This document shows positions 40,455 to 47,565 of a stretch of DNA of 64,000 nt, one piece after another (within the stretch, counting starts at the first letter, position 1; each line of letters begins with the position of its first letter). This DNA is from Erysipelotrichaceae bacterium. GTDB lineage: Bacteria; Bacillota_I; Bacilli_A; Erysipelotrichales; Erysipelotrichaceae. The notes below the pieces were generated by a model, which was not told where the DNA came from, did not search any database, and worked only from the letters and a program-made list of their open reading frames with translations. A program made the translations under genes and the position numbers. The DNA lies in contig JAFZQG010000040.1 in assembly GCA_017550145.1 (NCBI GenBank), positions 1 through 64,000 on the forward strand, written 5' to 3'.

Positions 40455-40632
40455 ATAGTCTCCTTTTTAATTAAAAAGGTGCTACCAAAGGTCGCTTTAC
40501 AGCGAGGTACCACCTTAATTTGTTTCTCAAACTCTTAACGCGAGTAACGCCGGCAATTTTGTTGCCGGAGCTCCTAAGTGATTCCTGTACAACTGTGTAT
40601 CGGCTCTCACCATCCGCCGACTCTCTTGAACG
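40455..40632 (-). promoter_or_regulatory. T-box riboswitch of ileS
   Basis: The leader contains the conserved T-box core AAGGTGGTACCTCGCT (40501-40516 on the minus strand), an AG-bulge stem I (GGTGAGAGCC), a specifier loop with AUC (40580-40582; isoleucine codon) and a stem III CCGGCAA/TTGCCGG. The terminator stem AGGTG-x-TACC pairs with 40477-40486 and is followed by U5. Uncharged tRNA-Ile pairing with AUC and the T-box would favour read-through into ileS. A -10 TATAAT is at 40636-40641, inside the sepF 3' region. Confidence 0.93.
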
Positions 40633-40635
40633 CTC

Positions 40636-40641
40636 ATTATA
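40636..40641 (-). promoter_or_regulatory. -10 element of the ileS T-box transcript
   Basis: A perfect TATAAT on the minus strand about 15 nt upstream of the predicted T-box leader. No good -35 was found at 16-18 nt. It lies just beyond the sepF stop. Confidence 0.5.
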
Positions 40642-40662
40642 CAGACATGTCTTAATCCTAGC

Positions 40663-41064
40663 TTAATCTTCGTCTGAATTCAGATTGATATCTCCGCCAA
40701 CCTGAAGGTTTTTCGGTGAACACAGGATAACGTTCTCACCGATTTTTTTGATTGAACCGTCAACTCCGTATACCACACCGGAGAGGAAGTCAATGATTCG
40801 CTGGCGATATTCGGAAGGCATTCTGTGCAGGTTCACACAGCACGCTCTCTTACTCTTGATATGATGTCCGATCTCCTCGGCTTCATCAAAATTCCTTGGT
40901 TCAAATAAAACAATATTCGTATTTGCCGTAATATTTGAAGATCCCTGGAGAGTGCCTCTTTCGTATGGAGATACGGCTTCAGCTTCTTCTTCAGTCAGTT
41001 CGAGCTGTTCTTCATCATCTTCTTCCGGCGCAATGAATTCTTTTAATTTATCACCAAGTCCCAT
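40663..41064 (-). CDS. sepF: Cell division protein SepF
   Basis: A 133-residue division factor that bundles FtsZ and aligns the septal ring. The N-terminal amphipathic helix (MGLGDKLKEFIAPEED) could bind membrane, an acidic linker follows, then the SepF core (about 46-125) with VVYGVDG and the CSPKN strand. Its ATG has AAAGGAG at 7 nt. SepF is usual in Firmicutes and often sits near ylm genes; here it lies next to ileS. Confidence 0.92.
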   Translation of the reverse strand: MGLGDKLKEFIAPEEDDEEQLELTEEEAEAVSPYERGTLQGSSNITANTNIVLFEPRNFDEAEEIGHHIKSKRACCVNLHRMPSEYRQRIIDFLSGVVYGVDGSIKKIGENVILCSPKNLQVGGDINLNSDED

Positions 41065-41912: not shown

Positions 41913-41938
41913 ATAAAAAGCAGGAATGATTCCTGCTT
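41913..41938 (-). terminator. Terminator at the end of the liv operon
   Basis: 9-bp stem AAGCAGGAA/TTCCTGCTT (41918-41926 with 41930-41938) and a T-rich tail on the minus strand; it closes the transcript after the CBS-ACT gene. Confidence 0.8.
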
Positions 41939-42587
41939 AATACTGTTCGTGAAGTCTGATGACGCTTGTGACGTTATATCCGGCTGACGTAAGTGTATCT
42001 TTAATGTTGTCATAACCGTGAACGATGACGACGATTTCGATACCTCTGCTGGTCCTATAGACCGCCAGATTGGAGATCGAGATTCCGCTTTCCTTGAAGA
42101 TCCTGGCCACATCCTCGAGAATACCAGGTTTGTCTTCGGAGATGTTGATAACATATCTGGTCGCATTCTGGTTGTAGCCAAACAGTTCGATGAAAGCCGA
42201 GAAGATATCGTTATGAGTGATGATACCGATCAGCTTTCCGTCTTCTTCGACGACCGGCAGACAGCCGATATTGTTTTTGCGCAAGATCGTTGCTGCTTCT
42301 TCCAGAAGTGCTTCCTGATCGATCGTTACGACTTCATTGATCATGATGTCTTTGATCGTCAGTTTATTGAGCAGATAGTTCAGCTCGAATACGGATAATG
42401 ATGAAGAATTATTAGGTGTATTGAAGGCAATGAGACTTTCCGTAATCAGACCGATCAGTTTGCCTTCTTCATCCACCACAGGAAGTCTGTGCAATTTGTT
42501 TTCCGACATGATGTCGATTGCTTCAGAAACGGATTGATTCGGCCCAATCGTTATCGGACTGGGAACCATATGATCTTTTACGTACAT
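41937..42587 (-). CDS. CBS-CBS-ACT domain protein (AcuB-like)
   Basis: A 216-residue protein with two CBS domains (about 1-125; LYVKDHMVPSPIT at the start, NEVVTIDQEALLEEA in the second) and a C-terminal ACT domain (about 137-210). CBS domains bind adenosine nucleotides and ACT domains bind amino acids, so it may sense both. It is the last gene of the liv operon with an AGGAGG site after livF; an amino-acid-linked regulatory role is inferred. Similar CBS-ACT (AcuB-like) genes occur in other Firmicutes. Confidence 0.85.
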   Translation of the reverse strand: MYVKDHMVPSPITIGPNQSVSEAIDIMSENKLHRLPVVDEEGKLIGLITESLIAFNTPNNSSSLSVFELNYLLNKLTIKDIMINEVVTIDQEALLEEAATILRKNNIGCLPVVEEDGKLIGIITHNDIFSAFIELFGYNQNATRYVINISEDKPGILEDVARIFKESGISISNLAVYRTSRGIEIVVIVHGYDNIKDTLTSAGYNVTSVIRLHEQY

Positions 42588-42589
42588 TT

Positions 42590-43300
42590 CTAACCTCCTA
42601 GGTAAGCCTTTTTGATATCTTCGCTGTTGAGAAGTTCTTGACCGCTTCCCGACATCACAATTTTACCTGTTTCGATTACGTAAGCACGGTTGGCAATACC
42701 TAATGCCATCTTTGCATTCTGTTCGACCAGCAGTATTGTCACACCCTGACTGTTTATATCTTTAATTATATCGAATATTTCTCTGACAAGTAATGGTGAA
42801 AGGCCCATACTAGGTTCATCCAGCAGCATGATTTTCGGTTTGGCCATCAGGGCTCTGCCCATCGCCAGCATCTGCTGCTCACCACCGGAGAGTGTTCCGG
42901 CGAGCTGTTCCTTTCTTTCTAGCAATCTAGGGAATAGTTCGTAGACATTATCAAGATCTTTCTTGATACCGTCATTGTCTTTTCTTGTATAGGCTCCTAA
43001 TAATAGATTATCTTCAACGGACTGTGAAGCAAAGACTCTTCTTCTTTCCGGACACTGGGCAACACCCATTTCCACGATCTTGTGCGGAGGAACCTTGGTG
43101 ATATCCTTGTCATCCAGAATAATGGAACCGGAATACGCCTTAAGCAAACCGGATATCGTATGCATAGTCGTTGTCTTGCCGGCGCCGTTGGCACCGATCA
43201 GAGTTACGATCTCACCGTCATCAACTTCAAAACTGATGCCTTTGATGGCCTCGATCACACCGTAACGGACAACCAGATCATTTACTTTCAGCATAATCAA
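42590..43300 (-). CDS. livF: Branched-chain amino-acid ABC importer ATPase LivF
   Basis: A 236-residue ABC ATPase. Walker A GANGAGKTT near 36, signature LSGGEQQ near 137, Walker B IMLLDEPS near 156, H-loop. It powers the LivHM channel with LivG. It overlaps livG by 4 nt as ATGA. Confidence 0.95.
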   Translation of the reverse strand: MIMLKVNDLVVRYGVIEAIKGISFEVDDGEIVTLIGANGAGKTTTMHTISGLLKAYSGSIILDDKDITKVPPHKIVEMGVAQCPERRRVFASQSVEDNLLLGAYTRKDNDGIKKDLDNVYELFPRLLERKEQLAGTLSGGEQQMLAMGRALMAKPKIMLLDEPSMGLSPLLVREIFDIIKDINSQGVTILLVEQNAKMALGIANRAYVIETGKIVMSGSGQELLNSEDIKKAYLGG

Positions 43301-44061
43301 TCACCCAGATAAGCCTTGATGACTTTTTCATCCTTCTTGATCTCATCAGGGCTTCCTTTCGCCAATAAAGTACCGTAGTTCAAAACGTAGATTCTTTCGC
43401 AGATATTCATGACCAAAGACATGTCATGTTCGATCAGCAGGATGCAGATACCGAATTTGTCTCTGACGAATCTGATCGTCTTCATCAGTTCTTCGGTTTC
43501 CTGCGGGTTCATACCGGCAGCCGGTTCATCCAGCAAGAGAACCTTAGGATTAGTAGCTAAGGCTCTGGCTATCTCAAGGCGTCTTTGTGCACCATAAGGT
43601 AAAGAGCTTGCCGGAATATCTTTTGAATCATAAAGATTGAAGATCTTAAGCAGCTCTTCAGCTTTTTCTTCAATCAGCTGTTCGTTTTTCTTACGCTTAG
43701 AAGTATGAAGAATCATATCTAAAATCGAATACTCATAAAGATTATTCATACCTGTCTTAACATTATCGATAACGCTCAGATTACCGAATAATCTGATGTT
43801 CTGGAAAGTACGGGCTACACCGGCCTTATTTACTTCGACTGTATTCATCTTGGCAATATCGTTACCATCAAGATAAATAACGCCTCTTGAAGGATTATAG
43901 ACCTTCGTAAGCATATTGAAAACCGTTGTCTTGCCGGCACCGTTAGGACCGATCAGACCTACTATTTCGTGTTCGTTTACTTCCAGATTGAGATTGTTGA
44001 CAGCCGTCAGACCGCCGAAATCGATACCCAGATTTTTTACTTCAAGAACAGGATTGCTCAT
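43297..44061 (-). CDS. livG: Branched-chain amino-acid ABC importer ATPase LivG
   Basis: A 254-residue ABC ATPase with Walker A GPNGAGKTT near 38 and signature YGAQRRLEIARAL (LivG-type, lacking the canonical LSGGQ), Walker B VLLLDEPAAG. The first ATG of livG overlaps the livM stop by 4 nt. Confidence 0.95.
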   Translation of the reverse strand: MSNPVLEVKNLGIDFGGLTAVNNLNLEVNEHEIVGLIGPNGAGKTTVFNMLTKVYNPSRGVIYLDGNDIAKMNTVEVNKAGVARTFQNIRLFGNLSVIDNVKTGMNNLYEYSILDMILHTSKRKKNEQLIEEKAEELLKIFNLYDSKDIPASSLPYGAQRRLEIARALATNPKVLLLDEPAAGMNPQETEELMKTIRFVRDKFGICILLIEHDMSLVMNICERIYVLNYGTLLAKGSPDEIKKDEKVIKAYLGD

Positions 44062-45116
44062 TGTGCCTCTCCTTTCTTAAAGAAACGTTTGGTGGTTTTC
44101 TCTAATGTCTGCTTCAATGTAGCACTGTTGGTGATCTGCATAACCACGATTAATACTATTGCATACATCAGCATTCTGTAGTCCTGTAATGATCTTAACA
44201 GTTCAGGCAGGATATAAAGAACAGTGGTTGCAATGATCGTACCGTTGATATTGCCTAAACCGCCGAATACGACATAAACCAGGATCAGAATCGAGGTATT
44301 GAAATCGAATTTTGCCGGTTGTAAAGTCGAATAGTTAAGCGCATATAAAGCACCGGCCATTCCGGCTAAAACAGACGAAATGACAAATGCCAAAGTTTTT
44401 GTTTTGGAGATATCGACGCCGATCGATTCGGCAGCGATACGGTTATCTCTGGCTGCCATAATGGCACGGCCATATTTAGAATTAATCAATGAATAAATAA
44501 CATACAGCGTAAACAGAATGAGCACAAAACCGCTGGTGAAATTGGAGATCTTGGCAGTATCCGTAGCACCCATCGGTCCTGACAGCAGCATCTTGCCGCC
44601 TTCAAGTTTTAACTCATTTGTAACAAAGGAGAACTGCATACCTCTTGAATCAAAGCCCAGATAAACATTATTGATCAAAGACTTGATGATCTGACCGAAA
44701 GCCAAAGTAACAATAGCCAGGTAGTCTCCGGAAAGTTTCAAAACCGGAACGGAAATGATGAATCCGAAAATGCCTGATACGATACTTCCGCATAAGACAG
44801 ACAGAGCCAGTCTTAAGATATCATTCGGAATACTCTGGGCACAGAAACCTGATACGCAGACCGCGGTAAAAGCACCGATAGCCATAAAACCGGCATGGCC
44901 AAGCGATAGTTCGCCGGAAATACCGACAACCAGGTTAAGAGACAGACCTAAAATGATATAGCAGCATACCGGAACCAACAGAGACTTGAAAAGTCTGCTC
45001 ATGCCAACGGTATTCATGATTACTTCGATAAGAATATAGGCAACGATCACCATCAGGAAGCTGATGGTACGACTGCGGTTTTTCTTTGAGAAAAGATTAT
45101 TGAAAATGTTTTTCAT
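44058..45116 (-). CDS. livM: Branched-chain amino-acid ABC importer permease LivM
   Basis: A 352-residue permease with about ten hydrophobic segments, a long basic N-terminus and the conserved loop AARDNRIAAESIGVDI near 245. It pairs with LivH. livH and livM are separated by one base. Confidence 0.93.
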   Translation of the reverse strand: MKNIFNNLFSKKNRSRTISFLMVIVAYILIEVIMNTVGMSRLFKSLLVPVCCYIILGLSLNLVVGISGELSLGHAGFMAIGAFTAVCVSGFCAQSIPNDILRLALSVLCGSIVSGIFGFIISVPVLKLSGDYLAIVTLAFGQIIKSLINNVYLGFDSRGMQFSFVTNELKLEGGKMLLSGPMGATDTAKISNFTSGFVLILFTLYVIYSLINSKYGRAIMAARDNRIAAESIGVDISKTKTLAFVISSVLAGMAGALYALNYSTLQPAKFDFNTSILILVYVVFGGLGNINGTIIATTVLYILPELLRSLQDYRMLMYAIVLIVVMQITNSATLKQTLEKTTKRFFKKGEAQ

Positions 45117-45117
45117 A

Positions 45118-45999
45118 CTACACCTTCACATTCTCTTTCTTGCCGAGCAAACCGGTCGGTTTGATCAATAAAACAACGATCAGAACGGTAAAGACGATCG
45201 CATCGGAAAGCTGGGTAGAGATATATGCCTTGGTCAGGTTCTCAATGATACCCAACAGCAAGCCGCCTAATAAAGCTCCAGGAATCGAACCGATACCGCC
45301 GAAAACGGCAGCGGTAAAGGCTTTGATACCAGGCATGGAACCTAAGGTCGGGGAAAGTGACGGATAGGTCGAACAAAGCAAAATCGCTGCAATTGCAGCC
45401 AATCCCGAACCTATCGCAAAAGTGATGGAAATAGTCGTATTGATGTTGATTCCCATCAGCTGAGCAGCACCTTTATCTTCAGCACATGCCCGCATCGCTT
45501 TACCGATCTTTGTTTTATTAATGAATGAAGTTAAACCGGCCATGATTACGATACAGGTTACGATCGTAATAATAGTTAAGTAAGAAATAGTTAACTGACC
45601 GTCAAATAACTTTAATGACCCGTCTGTAAGAATCGTCGGGAAGATCTTGGTATCGGAACCGAACATCAGCTGGGCGGCGTTCTCCAAGAAATAGCTGACA
45701 CCGATGGCTGTAATTAAAACAGACAGTGAACTCGCCTGTCTTAAAGGTTTGTATGCCAGTCTTTCGATGACAACGCCCAGGATCGTCGAGAACAGAATTG
45801 AGAGAATAATGCATAATCCGCCAGGCAATCCGAAACGCGAGAACGCATAAAAAGCAACATAGCCTCCGGCCATGATGATATCTCCGTGTGCGAAATTAAG
45901 CATCTTGGCAATGCCGTAAACCATCGTATATCCTAAAGCGATGATCGCATAGACACTGCCTAATGCCAGACCTGAAATAAGATAAGTCAGAAAAGTCAT
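45118..45999 (-). CDS. livH: Branched-chain amino-acid ABC importer permease LivH
   Basis: A 293-residue permease with the HYIISGLALGSVYAI-type first helix and the loop MRACAEDKGAAQLMGIN. A frame opens at 46059, but that part is not LivH-like. The Met at 45999 begins M-T-F-L-T-Y and the hydrophobic family N-terminus. Only a weak ACAGG site precedes it. A 12-bp hairpin between livJ and livH lies just upstream. Confidence 0.9.
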   Translation of the reverse strand: MTFLTYLISGLALGSVYAIIALGYTMVYGIAKMLNFAHGDIIMAGGYVAFYAFSRFGLPGGLCIILSILFSTILGVVIERLAYKPLRQASSLSVLITAIGVSYFLENAAQLMFGSDTKIFPTILTDGSLKLFDGQLTISYLTIITIVTCIVIMAGLTSFINKTKIGKAMRACAEDKGAAQLMGININTTISITFAIGSGLAAIAAILLCSTYPSLSPTLGSMPGIKAFTAAVFGGIGSIPGALLGGLLLGIIENLTKAYISTQLSDAIVFTVLIVVLLIKPTGLLGKKENVKV

Positions 46000-46029
46000 A
46001 TAGTACCTGTCAACATAAATATTATAGAT

Positions 46030-46057
46030 GAAGGTTGCTGAAAAATCAGCAACCTTC
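46030..46057 (-). repeat. Perfect hairpin between livJ and livH
   Basis: 12-bp stem GAAGGTTGCTGA / TCAGCAACCTTC with an AAAA loop, no U-run. It may protect or process the livJ 3' end rather than terminate. Confidence 0.75.
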
Positions 46058-46072
46058 AATTATCGGAATTTC

Positions 46073-47254
46073 TTAGTTTGCAGAAACATAGACACCGTTG
46101 GTAATAACAACAGCCTTCGGAGCCTTGGAAACTTCACCATTTTCAGCCCAAGTCATATTAAGACCTGTGACACCGTCAAATGACATAGAAGTGAATTCGG
46201 CAGTCAGAGCTTCGCATAAACCGTTTGTTGCATAACCCTCTTTATAACCGATATTCTCTAAAGCCTGCTTGATAGCGTATACTACGTCGTAAGCATCAGC
46301 TGCGAACTGGTTAGGAGTCTCACCGTATTTATCCTGGTATGCTTTAACGAAATGAACAGTAGCTTCATCAGTAGCATCAGCAGCGAACGGTGTAAGCAGA
46401 TAGACACCCTCTGCTAATGAAGTATCGAAACCTTCAAGAGTCAGGATACCATCCATACCATCGACACCGAAGAATACTGGAGCATAACCCATATCGTTAG
46501 CCTGCTTTAAGATTGTTGAAGCTGGCTGATAGTAAATCGGTAAGAAAACCAGATCAGCGCCTGCATCTTTAGCAGCAGTCAGCTGAGTAGAGAAGTCTGT
46601 TGAAGAATCATCTGTGAATGCGCCTTCGTAAACAACGTTTACACCCTTGGCAGCTGCTTCAGCTTTGAATTTCTCAAAGACGCCTGCAGAATATACGTCG
46701 TCTGACTTGTAGATAACGGCAACAACCTTGTCAGCAAAGTTGGTAGCCATGTAGTCAGCAGAAGCTACACCCTGGTTAGGATCTGTGAAGCACATCTGGA
46801 AGTTACCAGGATAGTTCTTCGCATCAGTGTAAACAAGAGCTGTAGAAGAGCCTGAAGGTGTGATCGCAAAGATCTTGTCTTCATCATAGTAAGAAGCTAC
46901 TGCAGCACCTGAGCCTGAAGTAACAGTAAACATTGAAACCTGCATACCCCAGTCAAACAGTGTTGAATAAGCAGAAACAGCTTTTTCACCATCAGCTTCA
47001 TCATCTTCCATTCTGAATTCGAATTTGATCTTGGAATCTGAAGCATTGATTTCATCTACAGCGATCTGAGCCGCATTTCTTACTGCCTCACCATAAACTT
47101 TGGCATCACCGCTCAACGGACCGGAACCGCCAAGTTTTACTGTAACGGTACCGTCACCGGTTTCACCGCCACCCTCGTTGCCGCCTTTACTGCCGCATCC
47201 TGCAAGAGTCAGAACACAGAGTACGCTCAGCAATACAACTAATAATTTTTTCAT
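46073..47254 (-). CDS. livJ: Branched-chain amino-acid-binding lipoprotein LivJ
   Basis: A 393-residue periplasmic-binding-type protein. Lipobox L-A-G-C (C20 in this frame), a Gly/Glu linker, then the Leu/Ile/Val-binding fold: KLGGSGPLSGDAKVYGE near 45 and FGVDGMDGI near 250. Binds Leu/Ile/Val outside the membrane. A frame opens at 47260, but AAGGAAGGA directs to the ATG at 47254 (spacing 6). Its expression is subject to the leader at 47315-47507. Confidence 0.93.
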   Translation of the reverse strand: MKKLLVVLLSVLCVLTLAGCGSKGGNEGGGETGDGTVTVKLGGSGPLSGDAKVYGEAVRNAAQIAVDEINASDSKIKFEFRMEDDEADGEKAVSAYSTLFDWGMQVSMFTVTSGSGAAVASYYDEDKIFAITPSGSSTALVYTDAKNYPGNFQMCFTDPNQGVASADYMATNFADKVVAVIYKSDDVYSAGVFEKFKAEAAAKGVNVVYEGAFTDDSSTDFSTQLTAAKDAGADLVFLPIYYQPASTILKQANDMGYAPVFFGVDGMDGILTLEGFDTSLAEGVYLLTPFAADATDEATVHFVKAYQDKYGETPNQFAADAYDVVYAIKQALENIGYKEGYATNGLCEALTAEFTSMSFDGVTGLNMTWAENGEVSKAPKAVVITNGVYVSAN

Positions 47255-47314
47255 AAACATTCCTTCCTTTCAGTAAGTAGTTTTTTTATAGATACAGTCT
47301 GAGCTGTTTCTAAC

Positions 47315-47353
47315 AAAATAAAAGATGAGCCCATCGATAACATCAAGCTCATC
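47315..47353 (-). terminator. Attenuator terminator of the liv leader
   Basis: 7-bp outer stem GATGAGC/GCTCATC (47347-47353 with 47324-47330), an inner stem TTGAT/ATCGA, and TTTTATTTT on the minus strand. It lies between the leader peptide and livJ. Confidence 0.85.
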
Positions 47354-47449
47354 ATTCATCCAAACACAATGGCCTTCAATTATCGAAATATCAGCACGCT
47401 TGCATAATAATAATGCCACGTAAACCGCGTAGTACCAGAATATCGATAA
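47334..47449 (-). promoter_or_regulatory. Alternative pairing segments of the liv attenuator
   Basis: Three complementary copies occur on the minus strand: TTATCGA at 47443-47449 (within the Ile codons of the leader peptide), TCGATAA at 47380-47386, and TTATCGA at 47334-47340 (within the terminator arm). Segment 2 can pair with 1 or 3; pairing 2:3 would prevent the terminator. The layout equals a 1:2 / 2:3 / 3:4 attenuator. Confidence 0.78.
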
Positions 47450-47507
47450 TAACGACCAGTCTGTCTAACAAAAAGGAGCACATTTCGCTGTAACAATATC
47501 GTTTCAT
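47391..47507 (-). CDS. Branched-chain-rich leader peptide of the liv operon
   Basis: A 38-codon open frame, not in ordinary gene calls. The start has the ribosome site AAGGAG at 7 nt. Residues 12-34 hold Leu, Val and Ile in runs: LL, LVVII, ILVL, L and III; 15 of 38 residues are Leu, Val or Ile. It stops 31 nt before the terminator arm. A ribosome stalled at these codons for lack of charged tRNA would cover segment 1 and free segment 2, so read-through into livJ would rise. Ribosome-mediated attenuation of a BCAA importer is inferred from structure; there is no T-box here. Confidence 0.85.
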   Translation of the reverse strand: MKRYCYSEMCSFLLDRLVVIIDILVLRGLRGIIIMQAC

Positions 47508-47537
47508 AATGGGTCTCCTTTCTGTTTATATGGTAAT

Positions 47538-47565
47538 AGTTTAACACATGAGAAAATCATGTCAA
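47538..47565 (-). promoter_or_regulatory. Promoter of the liv leader and operon
   Basis: Perfect TTGACA (47560-47565), 16-nt spacer and TAAACT (47538-47543) on the minus strand, with the leader AAGGAG about 25 nt downstream. Confidence 0.65.

Follow-up and report, generated by a model that had tools for sequence, protein, structure and literature searches.

The window analysed here, a 64,000-nt stretch of DNA from an Erysipelotrichaceae bacterium, carries on its reverse strand the genes of a branched-chain amino acid (BCAA) ABC importer, livJHMGF. An AsnA gene lies upstream of the liv leader in divergent orientation. The principal genes, together with a T-box further along the same strand, are the following.

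47260 to 46073 (annotated 46073..47260), (-): livJ, substrate-binding protein of the BCAA ABC importer; likely start ATG at 47254
45118..46035, (-): livH, permease (BPD_transp_2)
44058..45116, (-): livM, permease (BPD_transp_2)
43297..44061, (-): livG, ATPase with BCA_ABC_TP_C
42590..43300, (-): livF, ATPase
41937..42587, (-): CBS-CBS-ACT protein, probably cotranscribed, its ORF beginning 2 nt past livF
40485-40668, (-): T-box before ileS

The leader upstream of livJ contains a short ORF with its own Shine-Dalgarno (SD) sequence and start codon, located between promoter and terminator as in ribosome-mediated attenuators. Its parts, in the direction of transcription, are listed below.

47565-47538, (-): TTGACA-16-TAAACT promoter, its -10 element preceded by TG
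47515..47526, (-): AACAGAAAGGAG, leader SD region, also the 5' arm of a hairpin that sequesters the SD
47520-47515, (-): leader SD sequence AAGGAG
47507-47391, (-): leader ORF MKRYCYSEMCSFLLDRLVVIIDILVLRGLRGIIIMQAC, 38 codons, 15 of them for Leu, Val or Ile
47467..47478, (-): anti-SD arm CUCCUUUUUGUU, within leader codons 10-14
47443..47458, (-): segment 1 (UGGUC..AUUAUCGA), within the Leu/Val/Ile codons; core TTATCGA at 47449-47443
47391-47393, (-): UGA stop codon of the leader ORF
47370..47386, (-): segment 2 (UCGAUAAUUGAAGGCCA), immediately past the stop codon; core TCGATAA at 47386-47380
47334..47349, (-): segment 3 (AGCUUGAUGUUAUCGA), pairs with segment 2 in the antiterminator and contributes to the loop and 5' arm of the terminator; core TTATCGA at 47340-47334
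47315..47353, (-): intrinsic terminator, GATGAGC (47353-47347) and GCTCATC (47330-47324), then TTTTATTTT, with the U-rich tail UUUUAUUUU
47289..47312, (-): UAGAAACAG-N6-CUGUAUCUA, a second hairpin, also conserved, past the terminator and ahead of livJ

The earlier note on this DNA had described a promoter, a ribosome-binding site, a 38-codon peptide with 15 Leu, Val or Ile residues, three complementary segments and a terminator with a U-rich tail, and all of these lie where it had placed them; the T-box that it reported before ileS is likewise real. The 7-bp cores that it assigned to the segments are present, but the antiterminator extends beyond these cores and sequesters the 5' terminator arm as well. 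The -35 and -10 elements are also visible in most of the aligned relatives. Folded as a whole, the 268-nt leader is markedly stable (z = -4.17, with none of 200 shuffles as stable), and the terminator region folded on its own is not unusually so (z = -0.56). In the window sequence, both the 2:3 duplex (P = 0.003) and the 1:2 duplex (P < 0.004) stand out from shuffled sequences.

To extend the comparison, orthologous loci were collected from 60 relatives with LivJ as the query, and 22 leaders were aligned. Across these, the 1:2, 2:3 and 3:4 helices form a mutually exclusive set. The 2:3 antiterminator is paired in 86% of cells, 7 of its 14 pairs have changed on both sides, and none of 500 shuffles reaches its covariation, although such shuffle counts overstate independence because the 22 leaders are related to each other. 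All slid registers score far lower. Four leaders (L014, L015, L018, and L019) have both antiterminator segments rewritten, for example as GATATCATTTCAGC with GCTGAATGTTATC. The 22 aligned leaders retain the 3:4 terminator. Conservation extends to the 1:2 helix, but its covariation is weak, with 4 pairs changed on both sides and, subject to the same relatedness, 57 of 500 shuffles reaching the same value.

The position of the stop codon fits ribosome control. The gap between the stop and segment 2 is 4 nt and the last Leu/Val/Ile codon lies 5 codons ahead of the stop, which is the spacing that the mechanism needs for a terminating ribosome, and not a stalled one, to mask segment 2. Folding under a ribosome constraint, a check proposed in the earlier note, bears this out: in an equilibrium model that ignores co-transcriptional kinetics, the terminator probability of the window leader is 0.99 for free RNA and 0.98 with a ribosome at the stop codon, and falls to a mean of 0.28 with ribosomes stalled at the Leu/Val/Ile codons. 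The medians over the 22 leaders are 0.99, 0.97, and 0.29, respectively, and the stalled value is below the stop value, the expected direction, in 21 of the 22. Misfits do occur, in that L002, L007, and L010 hardly respond to stalling (0.89 to 0.98), while L014 and L018 favour the antiterminator even when the ribosome sits at the stop.

The regulatory codons correspond to the substrates of the operon and are conserved as a class. Ten columns of the 22-peptide alignment contain Leu, Ile or Val in 100% of cases, with the three interchanging in most of these columns, which is the pattern expected if these residues matter as a codon class. Columns that are not exclusively BCAA are less constant, particularly among the first ten residues, and the peptides range from 32 to 41 amino acids in length. 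The rare Leu codon CTA accounts for 20 of 106 leader Leu codons versus 8 of 271 in seven window genes, an enrichment that is only suggestive because the leaders are related.

A conserved peptide that is rich in hydrophobic residues might also be a functional small, possibly membrane-embedded, protein of the transporter, with the hairpins an ordinary terminator or incidental, and the conservation of certain positions occupied by other residues (columns 24 D, 31 R, 39 M, and 42 C of the alignment) would be in keeping with this. However, the hydrophobic runs are broken by Arg and Asp, any of the three residues is tolerated in the BCAA columns, the coding sequence also serves as segment 1 and anti-SD arm, and the 2:3 helix covaries in competition with 3:4. 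Moreover, a terminator without a switch between promoter and livJ would silence the operon. We therefore consider a small protein most improbable. Marginally less so, yet still very unlikely, is a nascent-chain arrest peptide, in which the peptide sequence, perhaps together with free BCAA or another ligand, rather than an empty tRNA at Leu/Val/Ile codons would stop the ribosome. Conservation of the C-terminal R-x-L-R/G-G-I-I-I-M..C exceeds what codon sensing by itself requires, but Ile, Leu and Val swap within conserved columns, the length of the peptide varies as noted, and RNA pairing partly accounts for the conservation.

A further pairing involves the ribosome-binding site. In the window, the SD region is fully complementary to the anti-SD arm. 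The SD:anti-SD duplex is stronger than its own shuffled mean in all 22 leaders (mean, -15.4 versus -9.7 kcal/mol), the SD region pairing with roughly the same stretch of the ORF each time, and in 15 of the 22 it is individually significant at P < 0.05. The conserved I-S-F-V of the peptide may be explained by this pairing. In the E. coli trp leader, further ribosome initiation is restricted; by analogy, the SD pairing may restrict further initiation on the liv leader.

Since this genome generally relies on T-boxes, a T-box or other riboswitch that reads tRNA or BCAA directly has to be considered. An Rfam search of the leader at E <= 10 returned nothing but one chance-level snoRNA match; the T-box covariance model (RF00230), with its Stem I and antiterminator, had no match in the leader at this threshold, and Leu_leader, His_leader, Trp_leader and the other Rfam leader families gave no match at gathering score. 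Together with the conservation of a Leu/Val/Ile-rich ORF that has an SD sequence, this leaves a directly sensing riboswitch with a negligible probability. A trans-acting factor, such as an RNA-binding protein, a small RNA or a CodY-like regulator, might instead flip the same hairpins, with the peptide being secondary, and the second conserved hairpin between terminator and livJ could be thought to serve it. That hairpin, however, lies outside the switch and is missing from some leader-bearing loci, while the Leu/Val/Ile codons and the spacing from stop to segment 2 suit control by the ribosome, so that we attach very little weight to such a factor.

Taken as sequence evidence, these data make it very probable that the leader controls livJHMGF as a classical ribosome-mediated transcription attenuator, through the charging of tRNA-Leu, tRNA-Val, and tRNA-Ile. 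With all three tRNAs charged, the ribosome would reach the UGA codon and mask the beginning of segment 2, allowing the terminator to form. With any one of them short, the ribosome would stall within codons 17-34, covering or lying 5' of segment 1, the competitor for segment 2. Segment 2, left free, would then pair with segment 3 to form the antiterminator, and RNA polymerase would read into livJ. When the leader is not translated, 1:2 pairing should again permit the terminator to form. The pairing of the SD region with codons 10-14 probably limits the loading of more ribosomes behind a stalled one. In other words, the importer is probably switched on whenever one of Leu, Val, and Ile becomes scarce for the ribosomes.

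A covariance model (R2) built from the 22 aligned leaders gave one strong match in the window's own genome and, at E < 1e-9, matches in 27 of the 36 genomes of the genus, a group of uncultured gut bacteria that the named records of close relatives place among Erysipelotrichaceae, chiefly those of ruminants. By coordinates, all 27 lie directly 5' of livJ, and most of the genus shows the same layout with a peptide like LVVIIDILVLRGLRGIIIM. A comparison of homologous loci had been suggested in the earlier note, and in the homologues the runs of Leu/Val/Ile codons are indeed preserved together with the switching hairpins. One of them, L062 (G011; leader region 1501-1705), has an ORF that seems to begin near the promoter without an SD sequence; its anti-SD arm is not evident and its Leu/Val/Ile runs are kept. 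Six genomes of the genus carry a livJ orthologue without an R2 leader match (G009, G017, G019, G020, G021, and G026), with a divergent ORF in G021.

When R2 was run on a sample of 295 genomes from the order, every strong match fell within the genus; two weak matches, in G051 and G144, were rejected as start regions of unrelated genes. LivJ homologues at 54 to 65% identity from Lachnospiraceae, Oscillospiraceae, Solobacterium and others lack the leader. The sole good match among 37 scanned LivJ-homologue loci, L118, was discarded as a leader outside the genus, its coordinates and score being those of G008, which is within it. An ORF scan upstream of LivJ homologues outside the genus, about 60 in all, found three BCAA-rich ORFs, all 472 to 530 nt upstream and unlike the leader peptide, and 20 such loci contained neither T-boxes nor other Rfam elements. 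By this comparison, the leader is lineage specific, being confined to one genus and linked to livJ genus-wide.

Genes for BCAA synthesis are largely missing from the genus, which is therefore predicted to be auxotrophic for BCAA and dependent on uptake. Among its 36 genomes, several of which are incomplete, none has an AHAS (acetolactate synthase) match over the cutoff or a full-length KARI match; an IlvD/Edd-type protein is found in 4 and BrnQ in 3. The KARI_N matches are partial (about 20 to 28 bits) and were rejected as KARI, as they most likely represent other NAD(P)-binding proteins. The window's genome, which is 94% complete, has no match for AHAS, IlvD or BrnQ and only a 23-bit partial match for KARI_N.

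This genome contains 16 T-boxes, 15 besides that of ileS. The aminoacyl-tRNA synthetase genes located behind them are alaS, ileS, metG, thrS, serS, valS, lysS, leuS, trpS, hisS, and pheS, and five T-boxes precede transporter-type genes (a MetQ-like gene, two TrpX-like genes, an L-type amino acid transporter-like permease, and one unnamed lipoprotein). The liv operon is thus an exception to the T-box habit of the genome, perhaps because one peptide can read three tRNAs and a T-box only one. T-boxes, like the liv leader, sense aminoacylation and work by a terminator/antiterminator switch, but they bind one tRNA directly and without translation.

Among known attenuators, that of E. coli ilvGMEDA has a 32-amino-acid leader peptide with 15 BCAA residues; it and other enterobacterial attenuators share with the liv leader the presence of all three BCAA in the peptide and alternative hairpins controlled by the ribosome (PMC6123439), but they belong to Proteobacteria and control biosynthesis, whereas the liv leader precedes an importer operon in predicted auxotrophs. 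Nearer in phylogeny, the low-GC Gram-positives have experimentally supported BCAA-peptide attenuators of ilv-leu in Staphylococcus aureus ilvD (PMC5794164) and Listeria monocytogenes Rli60 (PMC5864092). These combine a BCAA-rich leader peptide with a terminator and antiterminator as the liv leader does, but they precede ilv-leu biosynthesis and act in combination with CodY, and the Rli60 peptide has only 13 amino acids. Leader peptides in place of T-boxes have been noted in Firmicutes (PMC2965389). In the literature searched, mostly open-access papers, no report of a BCAA-peptide attenuator preceding liv genes came up. The earlier view that such an attenuator is unusual in front of a transporter is a fair one, although there is precedent in the His-leader attenuators predicted for his operons and/or the hisZYX transporter in Erysipelotrichaceae (Erysipelotrichales), Peptostreptococcaceae, and the Bacillus cereus group (PMC9413887). 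These include the same order and may control a transporter; they differ from the liv leader in that they concern histidine and are predictions only.

Judged from sequence and comparison, then, the liv leader is a well-supported new, lineage-specific case within a known attenuator class, directed at an importer and found in a predicted auxotroph. Bacteria that place many other amino acid genes behind T-boxes appear to have kept a peptide attenuator for this importer, and several amino acids feeding one switch offer a testable rationale for this. Somewhat speculatively, and with more doubt than confidence, we suggest that a three-amino-acid OR-gate attenuator arose in one BCAA-auxotrophic genus of the Erysipelotrichaceae, where it replaced a T-box since one peptide reads the tRNAs for Leu, Val, and Ile, and that its built-in hairpin lets essentially one ribosome load per transcript. 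The family is missing from Rfam and can be used for annotating gut and rumen genomes.

Some further features of the operon deserve mention. The ACT domain of the CBS-CBS-ACT protein is weakly AHAS-regulatory-like and could bind a BCAA, though no AHAS gene was found. The second hairpin (47289-47312) follows the pattern UAGnnACAG, a short loop, CUG, 1 to 3 nt, and CUA, with compensating changes in the inner stem; it is present in 22 of 26 leader-bearing loci and in none of 4 leaderless loci, and would occur only in readthrough RNA. As a genome-wide operator it was rejected, no other copy being found in the genome at <=2 mismatches. Finally, the segment 2 sequence CGATAATTGAAGG is repeated right after livJ (46029-46065, -) and there runs into a hairpin that precedes livH.
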